Shown: positions 5,818 through 28,100 of the stretch, in pieces | How positions within the stretch are numbered: position 1 is the stretch's first letter | Layout: the number at the start of each line of letters is the position of its first letter | Assembly: GCA_024103385.1 (NCBI GenBank) | Contig: JAGFIT010000031.1 | Coordinates: 1-64,000 of the forward strand | DNA: 64,000 bases | Reading direction: 5' to 3' | Origin: Vicingus serpentipes | Lineage (GTDB): Bacteria; Bacteroidota; Bacteroidia; Flavobacteriales_E; Vicingaceae | Position numbers and translations under genes: made by a program | The notes under the pieces: generated by a model | Told to the model about the DNA's origin: nothing | Database searches by the model: none | What the model saw: the letters and a program-made list of their open reading frames with translations, nothing else

Positions 5818-8800
5818 ATGAGAAAGTATTTTTCATATCACCATTTGTTCACCACACTATTAGTTGTGGTGTTATTGTGTTTAGCTCCTGTAGCGAATGC
5901 ACAGTGGACGCTGGATGTTGGAGGTACTGTTAAACAACAAGAAACAAAAAAAAGATTTGAAGGAGTAACTATTACCATTAAACGAAATGGAACTACGTGG
6001 AAGACACTCACTTCACCAGCAAACGGATCGTTTGACATATCTCTTGAACCTAACGCCATTTACATGATTGAGTTTTCTAAATCTGGTTATGTAACAAAAA
6101 AGATGGAGTTTTCTACTAAAAATGTTCCAGAGGAAGATGCTAAATATGGTTTTGAATTTCCAATGGAAATGAGTTTGTTCGAAAAAAGAGAAGGATTGGA
6201 TGTCTCTATTTTAAATAAACCGATTGCTAAAGTAGCATTTGATCCTAACACTGGTTATATGGACTATGATCCTGAGTATACTAAATCCATTAAAAAGGAA
6301 TTGGAGAGAATGAATGATGAATTAGACGAGTTACTGAAGAAGCAGGAGGAACAAAGAAAAGCTAACCAAGCAGAGTATGATAAACTGATTGCTGCAGGAG
6401 ATAAAGCATTTAATGGAGAAAAATGGGCTGAAGCGGAACCTTTTTATAAAAAAGCGGCTGAAATTTTTAAAGATGAATCTTACCCTGTAGCACAATTAAA
6501 AGAAATTGAAGCCAATTTGGCCAAAAATGCGGAGGCGAATAAAAACTATCTTGCGGCTATTAAAGCAGGTGATGAAGCATTTAATAATCAAGAGTGGGAT
6601 AAGGCAATTATACAATACCAAAAGGCTTCGGGTTATAATCCAGATGAGGAATACCCTAAAAATAAAATTAAAGAAGCAAAAGATTTAATGGCGAATGAGA
6701 AAAAGGTTACGGCAGAGTATAATGCAGCAATAGCAGAGGCAGATAAGGCTTTTGGCGCAAAAAAATATGAGCAAGCAAAAGTAAATTATGAAAAGGCAGT
6801 AGCTATAAAAACGAATGAAGCGTATCCTAAAACTAAATTGGGAGAAATTGAGAAGTTATTAGGGGAACAACAAAAAATTGAAAGGGAATACAAAAATGCT
6901 ATAGCAGAAGCGGATGGATTTTTTAACGCTAATGATTATGAAAAATCGATTGATTCATATAACAAAGCACTTTCGTTAAAACCTGCAGAGGCTTATCCAA
7001 CATCAAAAATAGTAGAAGCTAAAAAATTCATAGCGGATAAAAAGAAATTGGAAGCTGATTATCAAAAGTTTATAGCTGAAGCAGATAAATTTTTTGGTGC
7101 GAAAGACTATACTGCTGCTAAAATAAACTATCAACAAGCATCAGCGATTAAAAAAGAGGAACAATATCCAAAAGAGAAATTAGCAGAGATTGAAAAAATA
7201 GAAGAAGAAACGGCTAAAAAAGAAGCAGAAGAGAAACAAAGAGAGGCTAATTATCAAGCTGCTATTACTAACGGAGATAAGGCATTTTCTGCTAAGAATT
7301 TTGAACTAGCAAAACAAGCTTATCAAACTGCAAGTGAAATTAAGAAGGAAGAACAGTATCCAAAAAACAAATTATCGGAGATAGATAAGATTTTAGCTGA
7401 TGCAGCTGCAAAAGAAGCGGAAGAGAAAGCTAAAGAAGAGCAGTATAAGCAGTTAATTGCCACAGCGGATGGGCTATTAAGTGCTAAAGATTATGATGGG
7501 GCAAAAGGGAAGTACAATGAAGCGATAAAAGTGAAAACGGAAGAACAATATCCAAAAGATAAAGTAAGAGAGATAGAAAAGATTTTAGCAGATATAGCTA
7601 ACAAAGAAGCGGAAGAAAAAGCCAAAGAAGAGCAGTATAAGCAATTGATAGCTGATGCAGATAGAATGTTGGGGAGTAAAGATTATAATGGAGCCAAGGG
7701 AAAATATATAGAAGCGACAAAAATTAAAGTGGAAGAAAAATATCCAAAAGATAAACTATTGGAGATAGAAAAGATTTTAGCCGATGCAGCAGCAAAAGAA
7801 GCGGAAGAGAAAGCCAAAGAAGAACAATATAAAAAGTTAGTTGCAGAGGCAGATGGACTGTTGAGTGCTAAAAATTATGAGGGAGCAAAAGGGAAATACA
7901 ATGAAGCGATAAAAGTAAAATCAGAAGAACAATACCCTAAGGACAAAATTTCAGAAATAGATGCGTTATTAAAGGAGTTAGCCAAACAAAAGGCAGAAGA
8001 GGAAGCAAAAGCAAAAGCAGCTGCAGAATTACAAGCAAAATATGAAGGATTAATTGCTTCTGCCGATAAGTTGTTAGGGACTAAAGATTATGAGGGAGCA
8101 ACATTAAAATACAATGAAGCAATAACTTTAAAAGAAGAAGAGCAATATCCAAAAGATAAGGTAAGAGAAATTGAAAAGATTTTAGCTGAAATAGCTAAGA
8201 AAAAGGCGGAAGAAGAAGCTGCAAAAATGGCTCAAGGAGAAAAAGAAGCAAAATATAAAGAAGCAATAACATTAGCGGATAATGCATTTTCTTCGGAAAA
8301 TTATAAGCAAGCCATATTAAAGTATAACGAGGCATTATCAGTTAAACCAGAGGAACAGTATCCAAAAGATAGAATTAAAGAGACAGAAACCATTTTAGCA
8401 GAAATTGAACGTAAAAAGCAGGAAGGGTTAAATGCTGCTAAAGCTCAAAAAGAGTTGGATGAAAAATACAATAAGTTTATTGCTTCAGGAGATCAAGATT
8501 TATCTATTAAACAATACACTCAAGCAAAATCGAATTATGAAGCTGCATTGGGCGTAAAACCAACAGAACAATATCCAAAAGATAAAATCAAAGAAATAGA
8601 AGCTGTTTTGGCGGGTATTGCTAAAACAAAAGAAGAGGAAAGTTTAGCGGCAGAAGCAGAACGTAAAAAACAAGAGTACTTTAACGCATTGATAGCTCAA
8701 GCAGATGAAGCATTTAATAATAAAAATTATGATGACGCTAAAGCAAAATATCAACAAGCTTTAGGGTTGATACCTAATTCCAGTCACCCTACTAACAGAC

Positions 8801-19703: not shown

Positions 19704-21134
19704 CTAGTGGTTAAAATTTTCTATTAATTCTATTATTTTAGAGTGGTTGAGAAGATTAGGGTAATAATCTGTAAGTTCACTAATGATAAAATCAAGATCC
19801 TCAACACTATTATTGGTTAAAATAATGATTAGATTTTGGATAGCTTCGTTTTCTTTCCCACTTTTCAACAAATATGCAACTAATCTTGCATATATCAAGT
19901 AATTATCGGGCTGATTTTCTAACCCTTCATATAAATAAAGGATTCCTTTTTCTAAACTTTCGTATTCAGAAGATACTTCAGCTATATCTATCCAAATATT
20001 TTCGTTCTCTTCATCTAAGTCAACTACCTTGAGATATGCAATTAGTGCTTCACCAACTAATCCCATTTTAGCCAATATATCACCGTAGATATACCAATAT
20101 TCAGAATTGTTATCTTCTAGTTCAATCGCTTTTTTGATGTAAAATACAGCAGCCTCATTTTTATTTTCTCCTTCATTAATAACAGCAGAACCTGCCCATG
20201 CATCTGCATAAAATGGATCTAATTTGGTTGCTTTTTGGTAGTTGTAAAATGCTTTTTGGTGTTCCTCTAATTTCTCATAACATTCCCCAATGTAGTAATA
20301 CGTAGTAGAATCAGGGTCTTCATAATTAAAGGTTTCGCGATAAGTTTTAATTGCTTCTTTATATTTTTCAAGGTGAGTTAATGCATTCGCTTTGTTAAAG
20401 TAAGCAGAAGCAAAATCTTCTTTAATAGCAATACTGAAGTCGTAAGCATCAATTGCTTTTTCATACAATTCTGCCCTAGTGTAAGCAATTCCTAAGTTGT
20501 ACCATGCTGAAAAGTTATAAGGGTAATCATCAACAAATTTTTCAAAAAAAGAAATACTTCCTTTCTTATCATCTTTAAGGTTGTAGCAAAAAGCTAATTC
20601 GTAGAGCACAGTTTCATTTTCAGGATTTTCCAATAATAATTTTTTAATAATCTGAATGGCTTTGTCGAACTGACCTAAATTTTCATATTCAAAAGCGATA
20701 TTAATTTTAATGTTTACTTTTTCAGAATGTTCAGTAGTTAATTTTAGTGCTTTGTAATAATTTTCAATGGCTTTATTGTGCGCTCTTAATTGACTATGAA
20801 TATTCGCTTTTATTAAAAAAATATCTTGATTAAAAGGCTCTAGCTTTTCTATGGTGTTAAGAATTTCTAATGCCTTGTTAGGTTTATGAATCGTTGCTAA
20901 TAATTGTGCTTTTTTTAATTTTAGAGAGGTGGAGGTAGGGTGTTGATTTAATGAAATTTTAATGGCTTCTTCAGCCTTTTCTGGTTGGCTATTCTCTAAA
21001 TAATAATCGATAACATCTTCATATTCTGTCACATCAAAAAAATATTGTTCGTTTAGCTCCAACATTTTTTCAAATCGACTTAATGAAGCTTCATGTTCAT
21101 TATCATCGTTGTATGCATCAAAATCTTCTTCCAT
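19704..21134 (-). CDS. Tetratricopeptide-repeat protein
   Basis: A 476-residue soluble protein with no signal peptide, built almost entirely of TPR helix pairs (about eleven units between residues 35 and 460). Clear units include AWYNLGIAYTRAELYEKAID and YYYIGECYEKLEEHQKAFYN, with the small-large-small residue pattern of TPRs. The N-terminus is acidic (MEEDFDAYNDDNEHE). It is the first gene of the leftward ComA-rhodanese-PopT run and probably serves as a cytoplasmic adaptor. I recall this combination in other Flavobacteriia, but the partner is unknown. Confidence 0.88.
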   Translation of the reverse strand: MEEDFDAYNDDNEHEASLSRFEKMLELNEQYFFDVTEYEDVIDYYLENSQPEKAEEAIKISLNQHPTSTSLKLKKAQLLATIHKPNKALEILNTIEKLEPFNQDIFLIKANIHSQLRAHNKAIENYYKALKLTTEHSEKVNIKINIAFEYENLGQFDKAIQIIKKLLLENPENETVLYELAFCYNLKDDKKGSISFFEKFVDDYPYNFSAWYNLGIAYTRAELYEKAIDAYDFSIAIKEDFASAYFNKANALTHLEKYKEAIKTYRETFNYEDPDSTTYYYIGECYEKLEEHQKAFYNYQKATKLDPFYADAWAGSAVINEGENKNEAAVFYIKKAIELEDNNSEYWYIYGDILAKMGLVGEALIAYLKVVDLDEENENIWIDIAEVSSEYESLEKGILYLYEGLENQPDNYLIYARLVAYLLKSGKENEAIQNLIIILTNNSVEDLDFIISELTDYYPNLLNHSKIIELIENFNH

Positions 21135-21276
21135 AGGCTCCTATGTAAAGTTACTAGTTTATGAGTGTAGATAGCATTTTTAAATCTTTGTTTTCAACAA
21201 AAAAATTAACAATAACTTTTCATTACTGTATAATATTTTGGTTTTTACATCAAATTTTATTGTACAATTTTATGTT

Positions 21277-21284
21277 TAAATTTG
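21277..21284 (+). promoter_or_regulatory. Candidate -7 promoter element for the mutase gene
   Basis: TAAATTTG matches TAnnTTTG and sits 20 bases before the ATG at 21305. A TTG lies 14 bases upstream (21260-21262), which is closer than the usual 17-23. Confidence 0.4.
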
Positions 21285-21304
21285 TCTCACAAAATTAGGG
21301 TACA

Positions 21305-22693
21305 ATGACATTAATTAAATCAATTTCAGGGATTAGAGGGACGATAGGAGGAAGGCCAGATGAAGGATTAACACCTATAGATATTGTTAAATTTACTTCT
21401 GCGTTTGGAACATGGATTAAAGCAAGAAATAAAAATAAAGCAATTAAAATAGTGATAGGACGAGATGCTCGTATTTCTGGAGAAATGGTACAGCATTTAG
21501 TTGTAGGTTCTTTGCAAGGCTTAGGAATTGATGTAGTTGATTTAGATTATAGTACAACACCTACTGTTGAGGTTGCTGTTCCTATGGAAAACGCTCAAGC
21601 GGGCATTATTTTAACAGCTAGTCATAATCCAAAGCAATGGAATGCCTTAAAACTCTTAAATGAGAAAGGTGAATTTATATCTGAAACAGATGGGGCTGAA
21701 GTTTTAGCAATAGCTGAGCAAAGTGCTTTCAATTATGCAGAAGTGGATGATTTAGGTGTTTATAACCAATCGTCAGCTTATTTAGAAAAACACATAGAAG
21801 CTATTTTATCTTTACCATTGGTTGATGTTAATGCAATTAAAAGCAAGAATTTTAAAGTAGCTATTGATTGTGTGAACTCTACAGGAGGGATATTTATTCC
21901 TGTTTTATTAAAAGCATTAGGAGTGAAAAATATCATTGAATTGTATTGTAATCCAAATGGAGACTTTCCTCATAATCCTGAACCATTACCAGAAAACTTA
22001 ACCGAAATAGCTACGCAAATAAAGGAGCAAGGAGCAGATGTTGGTTTTGTTGTAGATCCTGATGTTGATCGATTAGCGATTGTATGTGAGAATGGAGAAA
22101 TGTTTGGAGAAGAATACACGTTGGTTGCTGTTGCGGATTACATTTTAAAAAACACAAAGGGAAACACCGTTTCTAATTTATCTTCAACTCGAGCATTAAG
22201 AGACGTTACAGAGAAAAATGGGGGAGAATATTTTGCTGCAGCCGTAGGAGAGGTGAATGTGGTAAATAAAATGAAAGAAGTGAAAGCAGTGATAGGGGGA
22301 GAAGGAAATGGAGGAGTAATTTATCCTGATGCTCATTATGGTAGAGATGCATTGGTTGGTATTGCTTTGTTTTTATCACATCTGGCAAAATCAGAAGAAA
22401 AGAATTGTTCAGCATTAAGAGCAAGTTATCCTAACTATTATATTTCTAAAAACAAGATAGAATTAACCCCTCAGATAGATGTTGATGCCATCTTAGTTCA
22501 AATGGAAGAAAAGTATAGAAATGAAGATGTGAGCACCATAGATGGAGTTAAAATAAACTTTGCATCAGAATGGGTTCACCTCAGAAAATCGAATACGGAG
22601 CCAATTATTCGAATATATTCAGAAAGTCAATCTAAAGAAAAAGCCGATGAATTAGCGAATAGAATTATTGAAGAGATTAAGGAGTTGATATAG
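21305..22693 (+). CDS. glmM: Phosphoglucosamine mutase family protein
   Basis: Converts glucosamine 6-phosphate to glucosamine 1-phosphate for UDP-GlcNAc, hence peptidoglycan and lipid A. The 462-residue protein has all alpha-phosphohexomutase landmarks: the phosphoserine in TASHNP (Ser106), the metal-binding DPDVDR (Asp251, Asp253, Asp255), the sugar-specificity GEGNGGVI loop and the C-terminal phosphate loop RKSNTEPIIRIY. The GEGNGG loop is typical of Bacteroidota members annotated GlmM; phosphoglucomutase or phosphomannomutase activity cannot be excluded. A heptamer repeat array begins 4 bases after the stop. Confidence 0.88.
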   Translation: MTLIKSISGIRGTIGGRPDEGLTPIDIVKFTSAFGTWIKARNKNKAIKIVIGRDARISGEMVQHLVVGSLQGLGIDVVDLDYSTTPTVEVAVPMENAQAGIILTASHNPKQWNALKLLNEKGEFISETDGAEVLAIAEQSAFNYAEVDDLGVYNQSSAYLEKHIEAILSLPLVDVNAIKSKNFKVAIDCVNSTGGIFIPVLLKALGVKNIIELYCNPNGDFPHNPEPLPENLTEIATQIKEQGADVGFVVDPDVDRLAIVCENGEMFGEEYTLVAVADYILKNTKGNTVSNLSSTRALRDVTEKNGGEYFAAAVGEVNVVNKMKEVKAVIGGEGNGGVIYPDAHYGRDALVGIALFLSHLAKSEEKNCSALRASYPNYYISKNKIELTPQIDVDAILVQMEEKYRNEDVSTIDGVKINFASEWVHLRKSNTEPIIRIYSESQSKEKADELANRIIEEIKELI

Positions 22694-22696
22694 ATG

Positions 22697-22766
22697 CTGG
22701 TTACTGGTTACTGGTTACTGGTTGCTGGTTGCTGGTTATTGGTTACTGGTTGCTTGTTGCCGGTTT
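22697..22766 (+). repeat. Ten tandem heptamers (CTGGTTR), left arm
   Basis: Ten consecutive 7-bp units fill the space between glmM and the four-helix-bundle gene. Six read CTGGTTA or CTGGTTG in the first six positions, followed by TTGGTTA, CTGGTTG, CTTGTTG and CCGGTTT, so decay increases toward the gene. Four reverse-complement units lie on the far side of that gene. Confidence 0.9.
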
Positions 22767-22792
22767 TGGATTGGGAGATGAAATTATAAAAG

Positions 22793-23155
22793 ATGAAAAG
22801 TTATAGAGATTTAGAAATATATCAAGAAGCTTATCAATTAGCAATTGAGGTTCATCATATGAGTTTAACTTTGCCTAATCATGAATTGTATGAACAAGGC
22901 AGTCAAGTAAGAAGATCAAGTAAGAGCGTGAAAGATAATATTGTAGAAGGGTATGGTAGGAAAAAATATAAAAATGATTTTACCAGGTTTTTAGTTTATG
23001 CTCAGGCATCTTGTGATGAAACTATTTCTCAAATCAGTATGATTAATGATTTATATTTTCCAGAAAACCCATTAATAAAATTGATGAGTGATTACGATAT
23101 TCTTGGGAAAAAGATTAATAAGTTTATACAATATGTTGAGGAAAAATGGAAATAA
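22793..23155 (+). CDS. Four-helix-bundle protein (S23/23S intervening-sequence protein family)
   Basis: The 120-residue protein is a typical member of the four-helix-bundle family first seen in intervening sequences of 23S rRNA genes (TIGR02436 type). It begins with the family YRDLEIYQEAYQLA helix, followed by ELYEQGSQVRRSSKSVKDNI and the NIVEGYGR motif, and ends with a YDILGKKINKFIQYVEEKW helix. Biochemical role unknown; the related Avd protein serves diversity-generating retroelements. Here no reverse transcriptase or rRNA is near. The gene is enclosed by inverted heptamer arrays and stands between glmM and a cysteine desulfurase, which suggests insertion as a unit. Confidence 0.88.
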   Translation: MKSYRDLEIYQEAYQLAIEVHHMSLTLPNHELYEQGSQVRRSSKSVKDNIVEGYGRKKYKNDFTRFLVYAQASCDETISQISMINDLYFPENPLIKLMSDYDILGKKINKFIQYVEEKWK

Positions 23156-23156
23156 A

Positions 23157-23184
23157 ACTAGCAACTAGCAACTAGCAACCAGTA
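23157..23184 (-). repeat. Four inverted heptamers (ACTAGCA/ACCAGTA), right arm
   Basis: Three ACTAGCA units and one ACCAGTA begin one base after the four-helix-bundle stop and end 2 bases before the cysteine desulfurase ATG. Their reverse complement reads TACTGGT then TGCTAGT three times, the same heptamer family as the left array but inverted. In RNA the arms can pair with occasional G-U pairs. Confidence 0.88.
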
Positions 23185-23186
23185 AT

Positions 23187-24326
23187 ATGAAAGTTTATTT
23201 AGACAATGCAGCCACTACTCCAATGGATAAGGAGGTAATAGATGCCATGTTACCAATCATGGAAAATAACTTTGGTAACCCATCCTCTGTCCATTCCTTT
23301 GGTAGAAGTAGTAGAGCTATCATAGAAAAATCGAGAAAACAAGTAGCTACTTATATCAATGCCGCTCCTGGAGAAATATTTTTCACTAGTGGAGGAACTG
23401 AGGCTGACAATATGGTGTTGAGAGGTGCAGTAAATGATTTAGGTGTAACTCATATTATAACATCTTCTGCGGAACACCATGCAGTAATTGATACTGCAGA
23501 AATTTTAGAAAAACAAGGACGAGTTAAGCTGAGCTTGGTAAAACATGATGAAAAAGGATATGTAAATATTATTCATTTAAAAGAATTACTGGAAGAGAAT
23601 AAAGGTGATAAAATATTGGTTTCTTTAATGCATGCCAATAATGAGATAGGAAACAAACTTCCACTAAAAAAAGTTGCTACTTTATGTAAAGAGTATGGGG
23701 CTTTTTTCCACTCTGATACTGTGCAAACAATGGGGCATTATACTTTTGATGTTAGAGATTTAGGAATTGATTTTATTACCTGTGCTGCACATAAGTTCCA
23801 TGGACCAAAAGGAATAGGCTTTTTGTTTGTTAATCAAGATGTACAACTAAAACCAATAATAACAGGAGGAGCTCAAGAAAGAAATGTGAGGGCTGGAACA
23901 GAGAATATAATAGGAATAGTAGGTTTAACTAAAGCGATGGAAATAGCCTATCGTGATTTAGAGCAACATCAAAAACACATTCAGAACCTTAAAACATATA
24001 TGATTGACCAGTTGGAAAAAACTATTCCTGGTGTAGGTTTTAATGGAGACCCTAAAGGAGATAGCTTGTATACGGTTTTAAACGTGAATTTTCCTAATAG
24101 CGATATGGATGAAATGCTATTGTATAATTTTGATATTGATGGGGTTGCTGTTTCAGGAGGAAGCGCATGTTCTTCGGGAAGTACTGTAGCTTCTCATGTT
24201 TTAAAAACAATAGGGGCGGATATGAGTAAACCATCCCTAAGATTTTCTTTTAGTAAATACAATACTAAGGAAGAAATTGATTATACATTAGAGGTAGTTA
24301 AAAATCTTTTTACTGCTGTTGCTTAA
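23187..24326 (+). CDS. Cysteine desulfurase (NifS/IscS type)
   Basis: A PLP enzyme that takes sulfur from cysteine for Fe-S clusters and other thio-cofactors. The 379-residue protein starts MKVYLDNAATTPMD, carries the PLP lysine in AHKFHGPKG (Lys203) and the persulfide cysteine in the short-loop GSACSSGS (Cys328), which marks the NifS/IscS class rather than SufS. The ATG lies 2 bases after the right heptamer array, so folding of that repeat could mask initiation. No IscU, ferredoxin or IscR gene is adjacent. Which sulfur pathway it serves is not decided by the window. Confidence 0.93.
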   Translation: MKVYLDNAATTPMDKEVIDAMLPIMENNFGNPSSVHSFGRSSRAIIEKSRKQVATYINAAPGEIFFTSGGTEADNMVLRGAVNDLGVTHIITSSAEHHAVIDTAEILEKQGRVKLSLVKHDEKGYVNIIHLKELLEENKGDKILVSLMHANNEIGNKLPLKKVATLCKEYGAFFHSDTVQTMGHYTFDVRDLGIDFITCAAHKFHGPKGIGFLFVNQDVQLKPIITGGAQERNVRAGTENIIGIVGLTKAMEIAYRDLEQHQKHIQNLKTYMIDQLEKTIPGVGFNGDPKGDSLYTVLNVNFPNSDMDEMLLYNFDIDGVAVSGGSACSSGSTVASHVLKTIGADMSKPSLRFSFSKYNTKEEIDYTLEVVKNLFTAVA

Positions 24327-24335
24327 ATTTTATTT

Positions 24336-25097
24336 ATGAAAATAACTTTTCTTGGAACTGGAACATCTCAAGGGATACCTGTTATTGCATGTTCCTGTGG
24401 TGTATGTGTCTCTGAGAATAAAAAAGATAAAAGATTAAGAACCTCTATAATGGTAGAGGATAAAGGTAAGGTAATAGTTGTAGATACGGGACCAGACTTC
24501 AGGCAGCAAATGTTGAGAGAAAATGTAAAACAATTAGATGCTGTTGTTTTTACACATGAGCATAAAGATCATATTGCAGGATTAGATGATGTAAGAGCTT
24601 TTAATTACAAGCAAAAAAGAGATATGGATATTTATGCTACTCCCGAAGTTCAAACAGCATTAATCAGGGAGTTTCATTATGCATTTACTGAGTATAAGTA
24701 CCCAGGAGTTCCTCAATTAGAATTACACACTATTGGTGATGAGTTGTTTAATATAGGGGGTGTAGTAATACAGCCAATTAATGTCTGGCATCATAAAATG
24801 CCAGTAAAAGCCTATCGTTTTGGAAATTTCACTTACATTACAGATGCTAATCAAATAGAGGAGAGGGAATTAGAAAAAATAAAAGGAAGCGAAATACTTG
24901 TCATTAATGCGCTAAGAAAGGAAAGTCATATTTCTCATTTTACTTTAGATGAAGCGATAGCTGTAATAGAGAAAATTAAACCTAAAAAAGCATATTTAAT
25001 ACACATTAGTCATCTCTTAGGTTATCATGATGAGGTAGAAAAGAAACTTCCTGCTTTTGTTAAAATTGCCTACGATGGGCTTTGTATAAAAATGTAG
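24336..25097 (+). CDS. MBL-fold metallohydrolase, PhnP-like
   Basis: A 253-residue member of the metallo-beta-lactamase fold. Metal ligands are visible in FTHEHKDHIAG (about residues 75-85), the mid-protein Asp in ITDANQIE and the late His in HISHLLGYHDE. The N-terminus reads FLGTGTSQGIP followed by two cysteines in ACSCGVC, the PhnP-type arrangement that may bind a structural metal. PhnP is a cyclic phosphodiesterase; without phosphonate genes nearby, the substrate here is open. It starts 9 bases after the desulfurase and is followed by a strong terminator. Confidence 0.87.
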   Translation: MKITFLGTGTSQGIPVIACSCGVCVSENKKDKRLRTSIMVEDKGKVIVVDTGPDFRQQMLRENVKQLDAVVFTHEHKDHIAGLDDVRAFNYKQKRDMDIYATPEVQTALIREFHYAFTEYKYPGVPQLELHTIGDELFNIGGVVIQPINVWHHKMPVKAYRFGNFTYITDANQIEERELEKIKGSEILVINALRKESHISHFTLDEAIAVIEKIKPKKAYLIHISHLLGYHDEVEKKLPAFVKIAYDGLCIKM

Positions 25098-25112
25098 AAA
25101 AGTAACAACAAT

Positions 25113-25147
25113 AAAAAAAGCTCCTTTTTTATAAAGGAGCTTTTTTT
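25113..25147. terminator. Bidirectional intrinsic terminator
   Basis: An 8-bp stem GCTCCTTT/AAAGGAGC with a 5-base loop is flanked by seven A on the left and seven T on the right, so it terminates in both directions. It lies between the convergent MBL hydrolase and T9SS genes. Confidence 0.92.
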
Positions 25148-25166
25148 ATTTACTAGAGTAGTCGTC

Positions 25167-28100
25167 TTAGTGTGTCACGATAAATTTAGCAACGCTTCTA
25201 TTGTTTCCAGATTCTACAGAAAGAATATAGGTGCCAATACTTAAAGAACTAGCATCAAATCTTTCATTGTGTTCTCCTTTAGATAAAGGACCAAAATCAA
25301 CAGTTTTAACTAATTTTCCTGTGAGGTTGTATATGTTTGCAATAGTTTTAGCATTGTCTTTTAAGTTAAAAGAAATGTTACCTACATTGTTTAAAGGATT
25401 AGGATAAACATTTAAATTGGAAACAAACTTATCATTCTTCGTTACTAATTCTTTATAAGGGTCATTAATACCAGTAGTAAATGTAGAAGAGGTATAGAAG
25501 CCTTTCCCATGAGTTCCTAAATAATACATTCCTGATAAATAGTTGCCATCAGAATCAGTTAAATTATATTTTGATTCTTGTCTTACTTCGAAAACAGGAA
25601 CATGAGCTAAACCATTGTTTTCTTGATTCCATTGCACAGCTCCAGCAGGACCGAATGCATTGTCAGATCCAAATACTCCCCATTCGGTACCAATAATTAC
25701 CTTATTATTATCGATAAAATCTATTTCAGCATCGTATACAGGCATTCTTGGTAAATAGCCAGCTCCTGGGCTAGCAGGACCTTGTATAGAAGTAAAAGTT
25801 CCTGTTCCTAAAGCATCTGTTGATCGGTAAACATAATTAGTGTTTCCATAATTCCCTAAAGTAACAACTAAATTATTTCCATTATTAGGGTCAACAGCAA
25901 TACCAGTAATAGCTCTTCCTGGCCATGTTTCTATTCTTGTACAAGTAGTTACATGTGAAGGTGATCGATAATCTAACTTTATAGAATCATTAGCAATATA
26001 AGTACTATCAATTACAGAGTATCCTCCTCCAGCAGAAAGATTGTCAATACGGTAAAGACTACCTCCGCTAGCTCCAACAAATAAAGTATTTCCATCAGGA
26101 GAAAATTGCATTACCTGAGCACTACCACTAAATGCATTAGGCTTAGAAGTATCGCCAGCAATTTTAATCCAATCAATGATAGGAGCACCTAGGTTAGATG
26201 CTTGTCGGGTAAGGTATACAGCTCCAGATATACCCCCAAATGCCATTTTGTGTTGAATGTAATCAGGCCACATTAATGTAGTATTTGTATCTACGGGTAT
26301 TGTATCTGAAGGATTGTAGTATATAGTAGATCCATTACTTAAACTTGTATAAGGATACCATTGACCTGGGTATAGAGTGTCAGTTCCGTTAAATTTAATT
26401 TCAATAGAGTCTGAAGTTAACACTGAAGGGCTATCAGAGGATTCCCAATATTGAATAGTCGTATTAAAGCTACTGCATGAGTTATTAGAACAATTAGCTA
26501 GAGTACTTAGTTCACCATCATAAAATGTAGCAGCACCACCACCACCAAGAAGTGTACGGTATAATTTTCCATATTGAGAAGTGGTGTAAGCAATACCTCC
26601 AGCTAAACTAGAAAATTCCACGGTAAATCCATCACCACCCGTTACTTCTACAGCATTTAAAGGTCCAGGTGTTCCTAAATCTCCAAAACCTACCAGTTGA
26701 CAACCATTATCTTGAGATCCTCCAAGTACCCAGCCCAATTCATTGTGAGCAACACTGAAGAAGGTGGTAACATTATAACCTAAATTCTTTTCTGCCCAAT
26801 TAGTTCCTCCATTGGTAGACTTAAAAACACCTCCATCAGTACCAATATATACTGTATTTGCATCTTTCCAGAAAATGGTGTGTTTATCAGCATGCATGTA
26901 ATATGGAGCCCCTAATGGTTCGGATAAATGAGCTGTTTTAGTCCAGTCACCACCTATAGGAGAGGAATTAGGGATGATATTAAGCTCATACAATTGAACA
27001 CCACCAATAATACATCTATTTTTATTAGATGGATCTACAGCGATGCAAGCATCATAAACACCTTGTCCATTTCCTGTTCCTCCATTTTGTAAAAAAGGAT
27101 CAATAGATTTAGCACCACCAGGGATTACCTTTTCAAATACAGGAAGATTACTTCCATCAAAAGATTTGGAAAGGTATACACCTTCTAACTCATCACTACC
27201 TCCATTACTTTTTGAAGTTAATAGGTAGATATAGTTAGGATCAGTTGGAGCAATTGCTGCAGATATTCTATTTGTTCCTGAGAAAATTGTTTCAGTAAAA
27301 GAATTGTCAGCATCACTAAAAGAGTGATAAACTTTATTGTTAAAACATACCACCATAGAACCATTACTGGCAATGTCTATGTCGTTAACAGTTGCAACTT
27401 GCTTGAGTGTCGGAAACACTATATATATAGGATTAAACCATCCAGCAGTAGTAGTAGGATATACTCCAGCTGTTGGATCAGCATATAACATACCATCTGC
27501 GGTACCAATATATAATCGTTCTCCTTTAGCAGCAATGGCATTAACAATGTTTAATGCTGTTTCTGATCCATTGTTATTAGGGACAGTTCCAGTATTAACT
27601 AATACGGGTACAGCAGTTTGAGTTGAAGGGATGTATTCATAGACGCCATTACCTGTAAAACCAGGGGTGCCTTTAGAGGTGCCGTTAATAGTCTCAAAAG
27701 AACAACCAGTACCAAAAAATATTCTTCCTGTAGATGTTTGCGTGATACATGAAATAGCTAAGTTATCTGCCATCTCCGCAACAGGACTCCATGTACCTCC
27801 TCCATTAGTTGAAACAAATAATCCTCCAGCAATACTTCCTGCATATACAATATTAGGATTATCCTTGTCAACCAAAATAGCTCGAGTTCTTCCACCAACA
27901 TTATCAGGTCCTTTTTGCTCCCAAGTCATGTTCAATGCCTTGTTGCTTATTTTATTTAAAGCAAACACTTCTTGTTTTGCTTTATTATAAGCATCCATAT
28001 CGATTTCTCCAGTAATTTGATTTGCTCTCAATGAGTGTATGTATTCTGCATAACCAGCAAAACCTTTAGATAATTCTTCATCTGCACTTCGAGGAGTATA

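Follow-up and report, generated by a model that had tools for sequence, protein, structure and literature searches.

Inverted heptamer arrays around a four-helix-bundle gene: a possible minimal mobile element of wide distribution and a possible origin of unexplained 7-letter genome repeats

A small gene enclosed by two heptamer arrays was found between two host genes of the same strand in the window, that is, the whole 64,000-nucleotide stretch of Vicingus serpentipes DNA that was analysed. The upstream host gene (21305 to 22693, + strand) was assigned as a glmM-type phosphohexomutase by resemblance only, its translation holding a TASHNP motif, and it ends with the stop codon TAG at 22691 to 22693. 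The left arm (22697 to 22766, + strand) starts 3 nt past this stop and consists of the units CTGGTTA (three times), CTGGTTG (twice), CTGGTTA, TTGGTTA, CTGGTTG, CTTGTTG and CCGGTTT. An earlier sequence-only reading had counted ten CTGGTTR heptamers here; all ten units are indeed in register, but only 7 are perfect, and the decay of the array toward the gene that it described was borne out by this unit-by-unit reading. Tandem Repeats Finder (TRF) reported the left array with period 7 and 7.9 copies (91%). A leader with GGGAG ahead of the start codon (22767 to 22792, + strand) is followed by the intact four-helix-bundle gene of PF05635/TIGR02436, encoding 120 aa (22793 to 23155, + strand; stop TAA at 23153 to 23155), which was recognised by profile matches and predicted structure. 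The right arm (23156 to 23186, − strand; read from the sequence and by TRF) begins 1 base past that stop and holds the four inverted units expected from the first reading (CTGGTT and three CTAGTT), which on the + strand run AACTAGC three times, AACCAGT and a partial AAT. The last full unit reaches 23183 and the partial one 23186, directly abutting the ATG of the downstream host gene, a cysteine desulfurase of the NifS/IscS type identified from its sequence (23187 to 24326, + strand), so that the gap of 2 bases previously placed before this ATG does not exist. The left-to-right inverted similarity of the two arms scored 40 against a median of 18 for a null of 7833 mismatched flank pairs from other copies (p = 0.0014). 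The exact doublet CTGGTTRCTGGTTR was present in the 3.1-Mb genome at the window locus and at one place on contig 19, and nowhere else. Elsewhere in the window, positions 7347 to 7934 carry an apparently coding tandem repeat with a period of 192 bp and 3.1 copies.

The window protein matched PF05635 (9 × 10−26) and TIGR02436 (6 × 10−27) above the curated cut-off and carries the conserved RR..S...N..EG core. Its predicted structure comprises four helices (pLDDT 96.7) and resembles 2GSC (XCC0516), which we take to be a pentamer, with a TM score of about 0.9; the likeness to the Avd chains 4DWL/8UB7 is remote (TM 0.63 to 0.75, E 0.3 to 0.7). The calculated pI of 6.8 is not basic, so that binding of DNA by the protein is only presumed. 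No catalytic motif or domain was recognised in the protein, PF05635 being the sole profile match, and the neighbouring ORFs together with the profile search agreed with the earlier statement that the unit contains no transposase. Among orthologous family genes in relatives, dN/dS was 0.03 to 0.16, indicating that the protein is functional and under purifying selection. Although structures of PF05635 members have been solved since 2006, we know of no function for the family.

The genome to which the window belongs contains ten TIGR02436 genes, and congener genomes contain from 1 to 16. Inverted flank repeats were detected at p ≤ 0.05 in 51 of 77 testable copies from this genome and 20 relatives, a count that leaves out a conserved arm-less ortholog family used as an internal control, in which none of 11 copies had them. 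This ortholog, of ~170 aa, occupies a single position upstream of an IspD-like gene in nearly all congeners (L016, L034 to L037, L053, L061, L067, L079, L084 and L087), and is a candidate domesticated copy. In a set covering the phylum Bacteroidota, 16 of 30 loci had inverted flank repeats. A wide scan with a fragment of XCC0516 as the query and one genome per species returned 80 loci. These span about 20 phyla, among them candidate-phyla bacteria and the archaeal Methanophagales, and inverted flank repeats were present in 58 of the 79 testable loci at p < 0.05 and in 41 at p < 0.01. One further search used as its query a family-like composite (its start taken from L020), not a natural protein; its matches are real records, but the identities obtained with this query are not meaningful. 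Armed copies were also found on plasmids of Nostoc, Calothrix, Pseudanabaena, Anabaena and Gemmatirosa, with arm motifs that include GGGAGTA, GGGAACA, GGTGACA, GGGTGTA and GGCAGGA. On the Pseudanabaena and Anabaena plasmids (L164 and L166), the armed gene lies between cas6 and cas4, a placement that may explain why the family has been reported as a cas-locus gene (PMC3936711). At another locus (L019), a direct repeat of several tens of bases, holding arm sequence and leader, occurs about 4 times upstream of the gene. Thus, as the sequence-only reading would lead one to expect of a mobile unit, most TIGR02436 genes elsewhere carry inverted heptamer flanks. The unit is not peculiar to the window locus; the same anatomy is widespread, and the heptamer sequence changes at nearly every locus.

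Common rules of period, polarity and placement emerged from these loci. The arms have a period of 7, sometimes 8 (dominant in 84 and 34 elements, respectively), with a lag-7 self-match of z = 12.7, 5.6 and 22 in three data sets. In 118 of 124 elements, reading inward gives a G-rich strand. At unique sites in Bacteroidota, the gene lies in sense between codirectional genes in 45 of 47 cases (p = 9 × 10−18 against random placement and orientation) and never antisense; counting every copy, the figure is 84 of 86. Outside Bacteroidota the rule is weaker, with 40 sense (++), 20 mixed and 5 antisense (−−) placements among 65. Insertion sites include sdhA/sdhB, sufB/sufC, fadB/fadA and moaE/moaC (genes named by sequence resemblance), several operon sites are occupied by different protein subfamilies, and in Xanthomonas the gene lies between apparent accB and accC, the right arm stopping at the accC start. 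On two cyanobacterial plasmids the gene is antisense within a codirectional pair, between ribonucleotide reductase subunits with intact arms in L162 and between toxin-secretion ABC transporter genes in L168.

We then compared arms and proteins across loci. Arm similarity between different sites climbed with protein identity (pairs of at least 50% identity versus pairs below 40%, p = 9 × 10−12, the pairs not being independent). The closest relative found of the window protein, about 49 to 50% identical and from another genus (L338), lies between a predicted ABC ATPase gene and a glycosyltransferase gene and is flanked by CTAGTTT/CTGGTTT arms; among the elements compared, it was also the best match for the arms of the window copy (score 36, mean 16.7). 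As far as sequence comparison goes, these data showed that arms and gene travel together and that the operon site held by related units varies from genome to genome. Between same-site orthologs, co-evolution of the two arms was not detected in 6 diverged pairs (27 within elements against 20 across them, overall p = 0.16).

The mobility proposed in the sequence-only reading was consistent with the empty sites, and so withstood the second refuting condition set there, presence of the unit at the same place in all relatives. In congeners, glmM and the desulfurase gene adjoin each other or are parted by short spacers, the unit being absent, and other insertion sites are likewise empty in at least one relative; where sdhA/sdhB and fadB/fadA lack the unit, the gap often measures no more than about 5 to 15 nt. 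Comparison of filled and empty sites showed the unit to be an insertion in the gap that separates an operon gene's stop codon from the start codon of its downstream neighbour. No target-site duplication was definable, because the host intergenic sequences are too short and too diverged. Two gene-less sites (L094 and L127) hold inverted heptamer arrays or hairpins, and a third (L121) retains the left arm that accompanies a gene copy in another species (L049) and looks like the scar of a deletion. At sufB/sufC in several congeners (L108 to L112), a different small gene, YHS-like, is present instead of the four-helix-bundle gene. Three otherwise empty operon sites (L095, L126 and L120) contain another intergenic repeat, of the type GTCATCCTGAG...TCGAAGG.

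The genome of the window has no dispersed CTGGTTR arrays, and the question of whether arrays spread in trans therefore rests on the xanthomonads. In this family, the arms of XCC0516 orthologs have the motif GGGAATC, which is also a published, unexplained Xanthomonas repeat that forms 70 inverted pairs in X. campestris (PMC4692102). Across 79 xanthomonad-family genomes, which like the pairs in these tests are phylogenetically non-independent, 1490 GGGAATC doublets were counted in the 35 gene-positive genomes and 41 in the 44 gene-negative ones, and at least 4 doublets were present in 18 of the 35 versus 3 of the 44 (Fisher's test, 9 × 10−6). Among gene-positive genomes with known arms, arms of the GGGAATC/GGGATTC type predicted GGGAATC doublets (p = 5 × 10−4), these class A arm motifs having been assigned once the GGGAATC counts had been seen. 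For class B, the arms of eight genomes gave GGARYGA as the predicted motif, which was fixed ahead of the search. The counts in these eight genomes, which include the arms themselves, were 0, 268, 11, 20, 2, 4, 9 and 56, compared with at most 2 in the other gene-positive genomes with known arms (enrichment p = 5 × 10−5). Two class B genomes showed no spread, G189 having no match and the two matches of G217 being its own arms; gene-negative G195 and G227 also hold GGARYGA arrays, and some gene-positive genomes contain arrays of a motif unlike the arms examined. All 12 gene-less array pairs examined are convergent, have the same polarity, lie 22 to 104 nt apart and are situated near ORF ends. A single MITE family was considered for these pairs and rejected, as the inner 22 to 104 nt are for the most part unrelated to one another and contain no remnant of a gene. 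Many gene-less GGGAATC pairs (L292 to L303) share AAAGC/GCTTT-like motifs just inside the arms, and such motifs are likewise present in the gene-bearing Xanthomonas unit. From the motif matching, we infer that the protein promotes the spread of its arrays.

We consider that the unit at 22697 to 23186 belongs to a class of ~0.4- to 0.5-kb mobile elements that is very widespread and whose arrays are copied with the aid of the protein, and assign this reading a probability of about 0.6. We infer the following route of movement. The gene would have no promoter of its own and would be expressed from the host operon, and the arrays would work at the level of DNA, as ends of the element or as recognition sites, and not through RNA. 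The four-helix-bundle protein, an oligomer, would bind the G-rich array strand, probably in single-stranded form and with a register of 7 nt, and would help the arrays to be copied into new intergenic sites; as no catalytic domain was recognised in the protein, host or third-party enzymes are invoked for the copying. Later, the arrays would lengthen, shrink and diverge through slippage, which would give each locus its own heptamer.

An explanation at the level of RNA is the strongest competitor, though we think it improbable. On this account the unit is an operon intervening sequence whose arms pair in the polycistronic transcript, selection on the stem keeping them complementary; RNase III could trim the unit out of the transcript, or the stem would join the upstream stop to the downstream start, protecting the host genes. 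Complementarity of the arms in RNA, as first described, was confirmed by folding, which gave a stem of ~30 bp (z = −4.2 versus shuffles). Sense-only placement within Bacteroidota operons and the abutment of the arms on stop and start codons also fit such a role, as does the related intervening sequence of Coxiella 23S rRNA, whose 28-bp terminal stem is cut by RNase III in vitro (PMC4990558). A stem maintained in mRNA, however, is at odds with the arm mismatches, among which G-U-compatible ones are not in excess (122 compatible versus 168 incompatible in 134 elements, and 47:47 in the clade of the window). This absence of a G-U bias means that neither selection on an mRNA stem nor the masking of the desulfurase start codon, which the sequence-only reading had suggested, is supported, though RNase III may still trim the transcript. 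The antisense plasmid copy with intact arms (L162) and the scattering of xanthomonad arrays as short gene-less pairs also speak against an RNA role.

Less probable still, and in our view unlikely, is that the gene tends to land in or beside intergenic arrays that are themselves ordinary heptamer microsatellites prone to slippage, or a mobile repeat independent of it. Heptamers are the most abundant among the longer simple repeats in many bacteria (PMC4679880, PMC4692102), and the length and sequence of the arrays are highly variable, as this account would have it; it does not, however, accommodate arms that are inverted, paired and polar about the gene in about 20 phyla, an arm motif that tracks the protein lineage across sites, or dispersed motifs equal to that in the arms of the gene carried by the same genome. 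Strong purifying selection and the orthologous copies kept at one site in several species would suit a gene that is resident and does not move, the protein binding its flanking repeats to autoregulate the operon, but the empty sites, the many sites in unrelated operons, the range of 1 to 16 copies in one genus and an arm-less conserved ortholog that shows what a settled copy looks like make this the least probable explanation.

Among known systems, the 23S rRNA intervening sequences that carry the same ORF come nearest to the unit. In Coxiella and Leptospira, the S23p/IVP ORF of these sequences belongs to PF05635, like the window gene; their size is similar to that of the unit, at 428 nt in Coxiella, their terminal inverted repeats can pair into a stem, and the sporadic distribution of these sequences has been read as horizontal transfer (PMC4990558). 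The window unit differs in lying between protein-coding operon genes and not in rRNA, and its arms are tandem heptamers that differ by locus and bear no sign of selection for RNA pairing. No Rfam match was found at 20000 to 26000 of the window, and a 23S rRNA context for arm-less copies was discarded, as 20 such loci gave no Rfam match. REPtrons, in which a TnpA-REP (RAYT) gene is flanked by short repeats and motif-matched gene-less copies occur genome-wide (PMC8266576), resemble the present elements in having a repeat-flanked gene and a protein under purifying selection, and in xanthomonads also in the matching gene-less copies; the genome of the window holds just one further CTGGTTR doublet. 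In contrast to REPtrons, the protein here is a four-helix bundle with no HuH/tyrosine transposase domain, the repeats are 7- to 8-nt tandem arrays and not GTAG-tagged palindromes, and Bacteroidota genomes hold many diverse copies of the gene. Avd of the diversity-generating retroelements has the same fold as the window protein, and its relation to the PF05635 family has been noted (PMC10053308), but no reverse transcriptase is present among the ORFs neighbouring the unit; the sole match in the genome (RVT_1) is a 330-aa ORF on contig 76 (L339). Compared with insertion sequences and MITEs, the unit has no transposase and its terminal repeats are not fixed, the arms differing at each locus. The known heptamer repeats GGGAATC (Xanthomonas), GGGGA(C/T)T (Nostoc), TAACTGA (Beggiatoaceae) and the cyanobacterial STRRs have the same unit length as the arms and share with them an intergenic position and occurrence as inverted pairs (PMC4692102). 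The papers on these repeats describe the repeats alone, and no link to a PF05635 gene was found in them; likewise, a search of freely available papers found nothing joining PF05635 to heptamer arrays.

Taken together, the data suggest that this gene family and its arrays form a minimal mobile element of wide distribution, from which 7-letter genome repeats that lack an explanation may derive. A broader reading, to which we give slightly less than even odds and which we offer tentatively, is that PF05635 proteins are trans-acting mobility factors that lack a classical catalytic domain and spread their own arrays in a 7-nt register, and that scattered bacterial heptamers, such as Xanthomonas GGGAATC and the cyanobacterial STRRs, are their footprints and non-autonomous copies. 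If true, this would constitute a new class of mobile element. The function of PF05635 and the over-representation of heptamers, both unexplained, are brought under one testable hypothesis, the basis of the link being the inverted arrays in about 20 phyla and the tendency of dispersed motifs to match the arms in the one family tested. The finding is indicative of a mobile element of very small size, able to settle in operons with little apparent damage.
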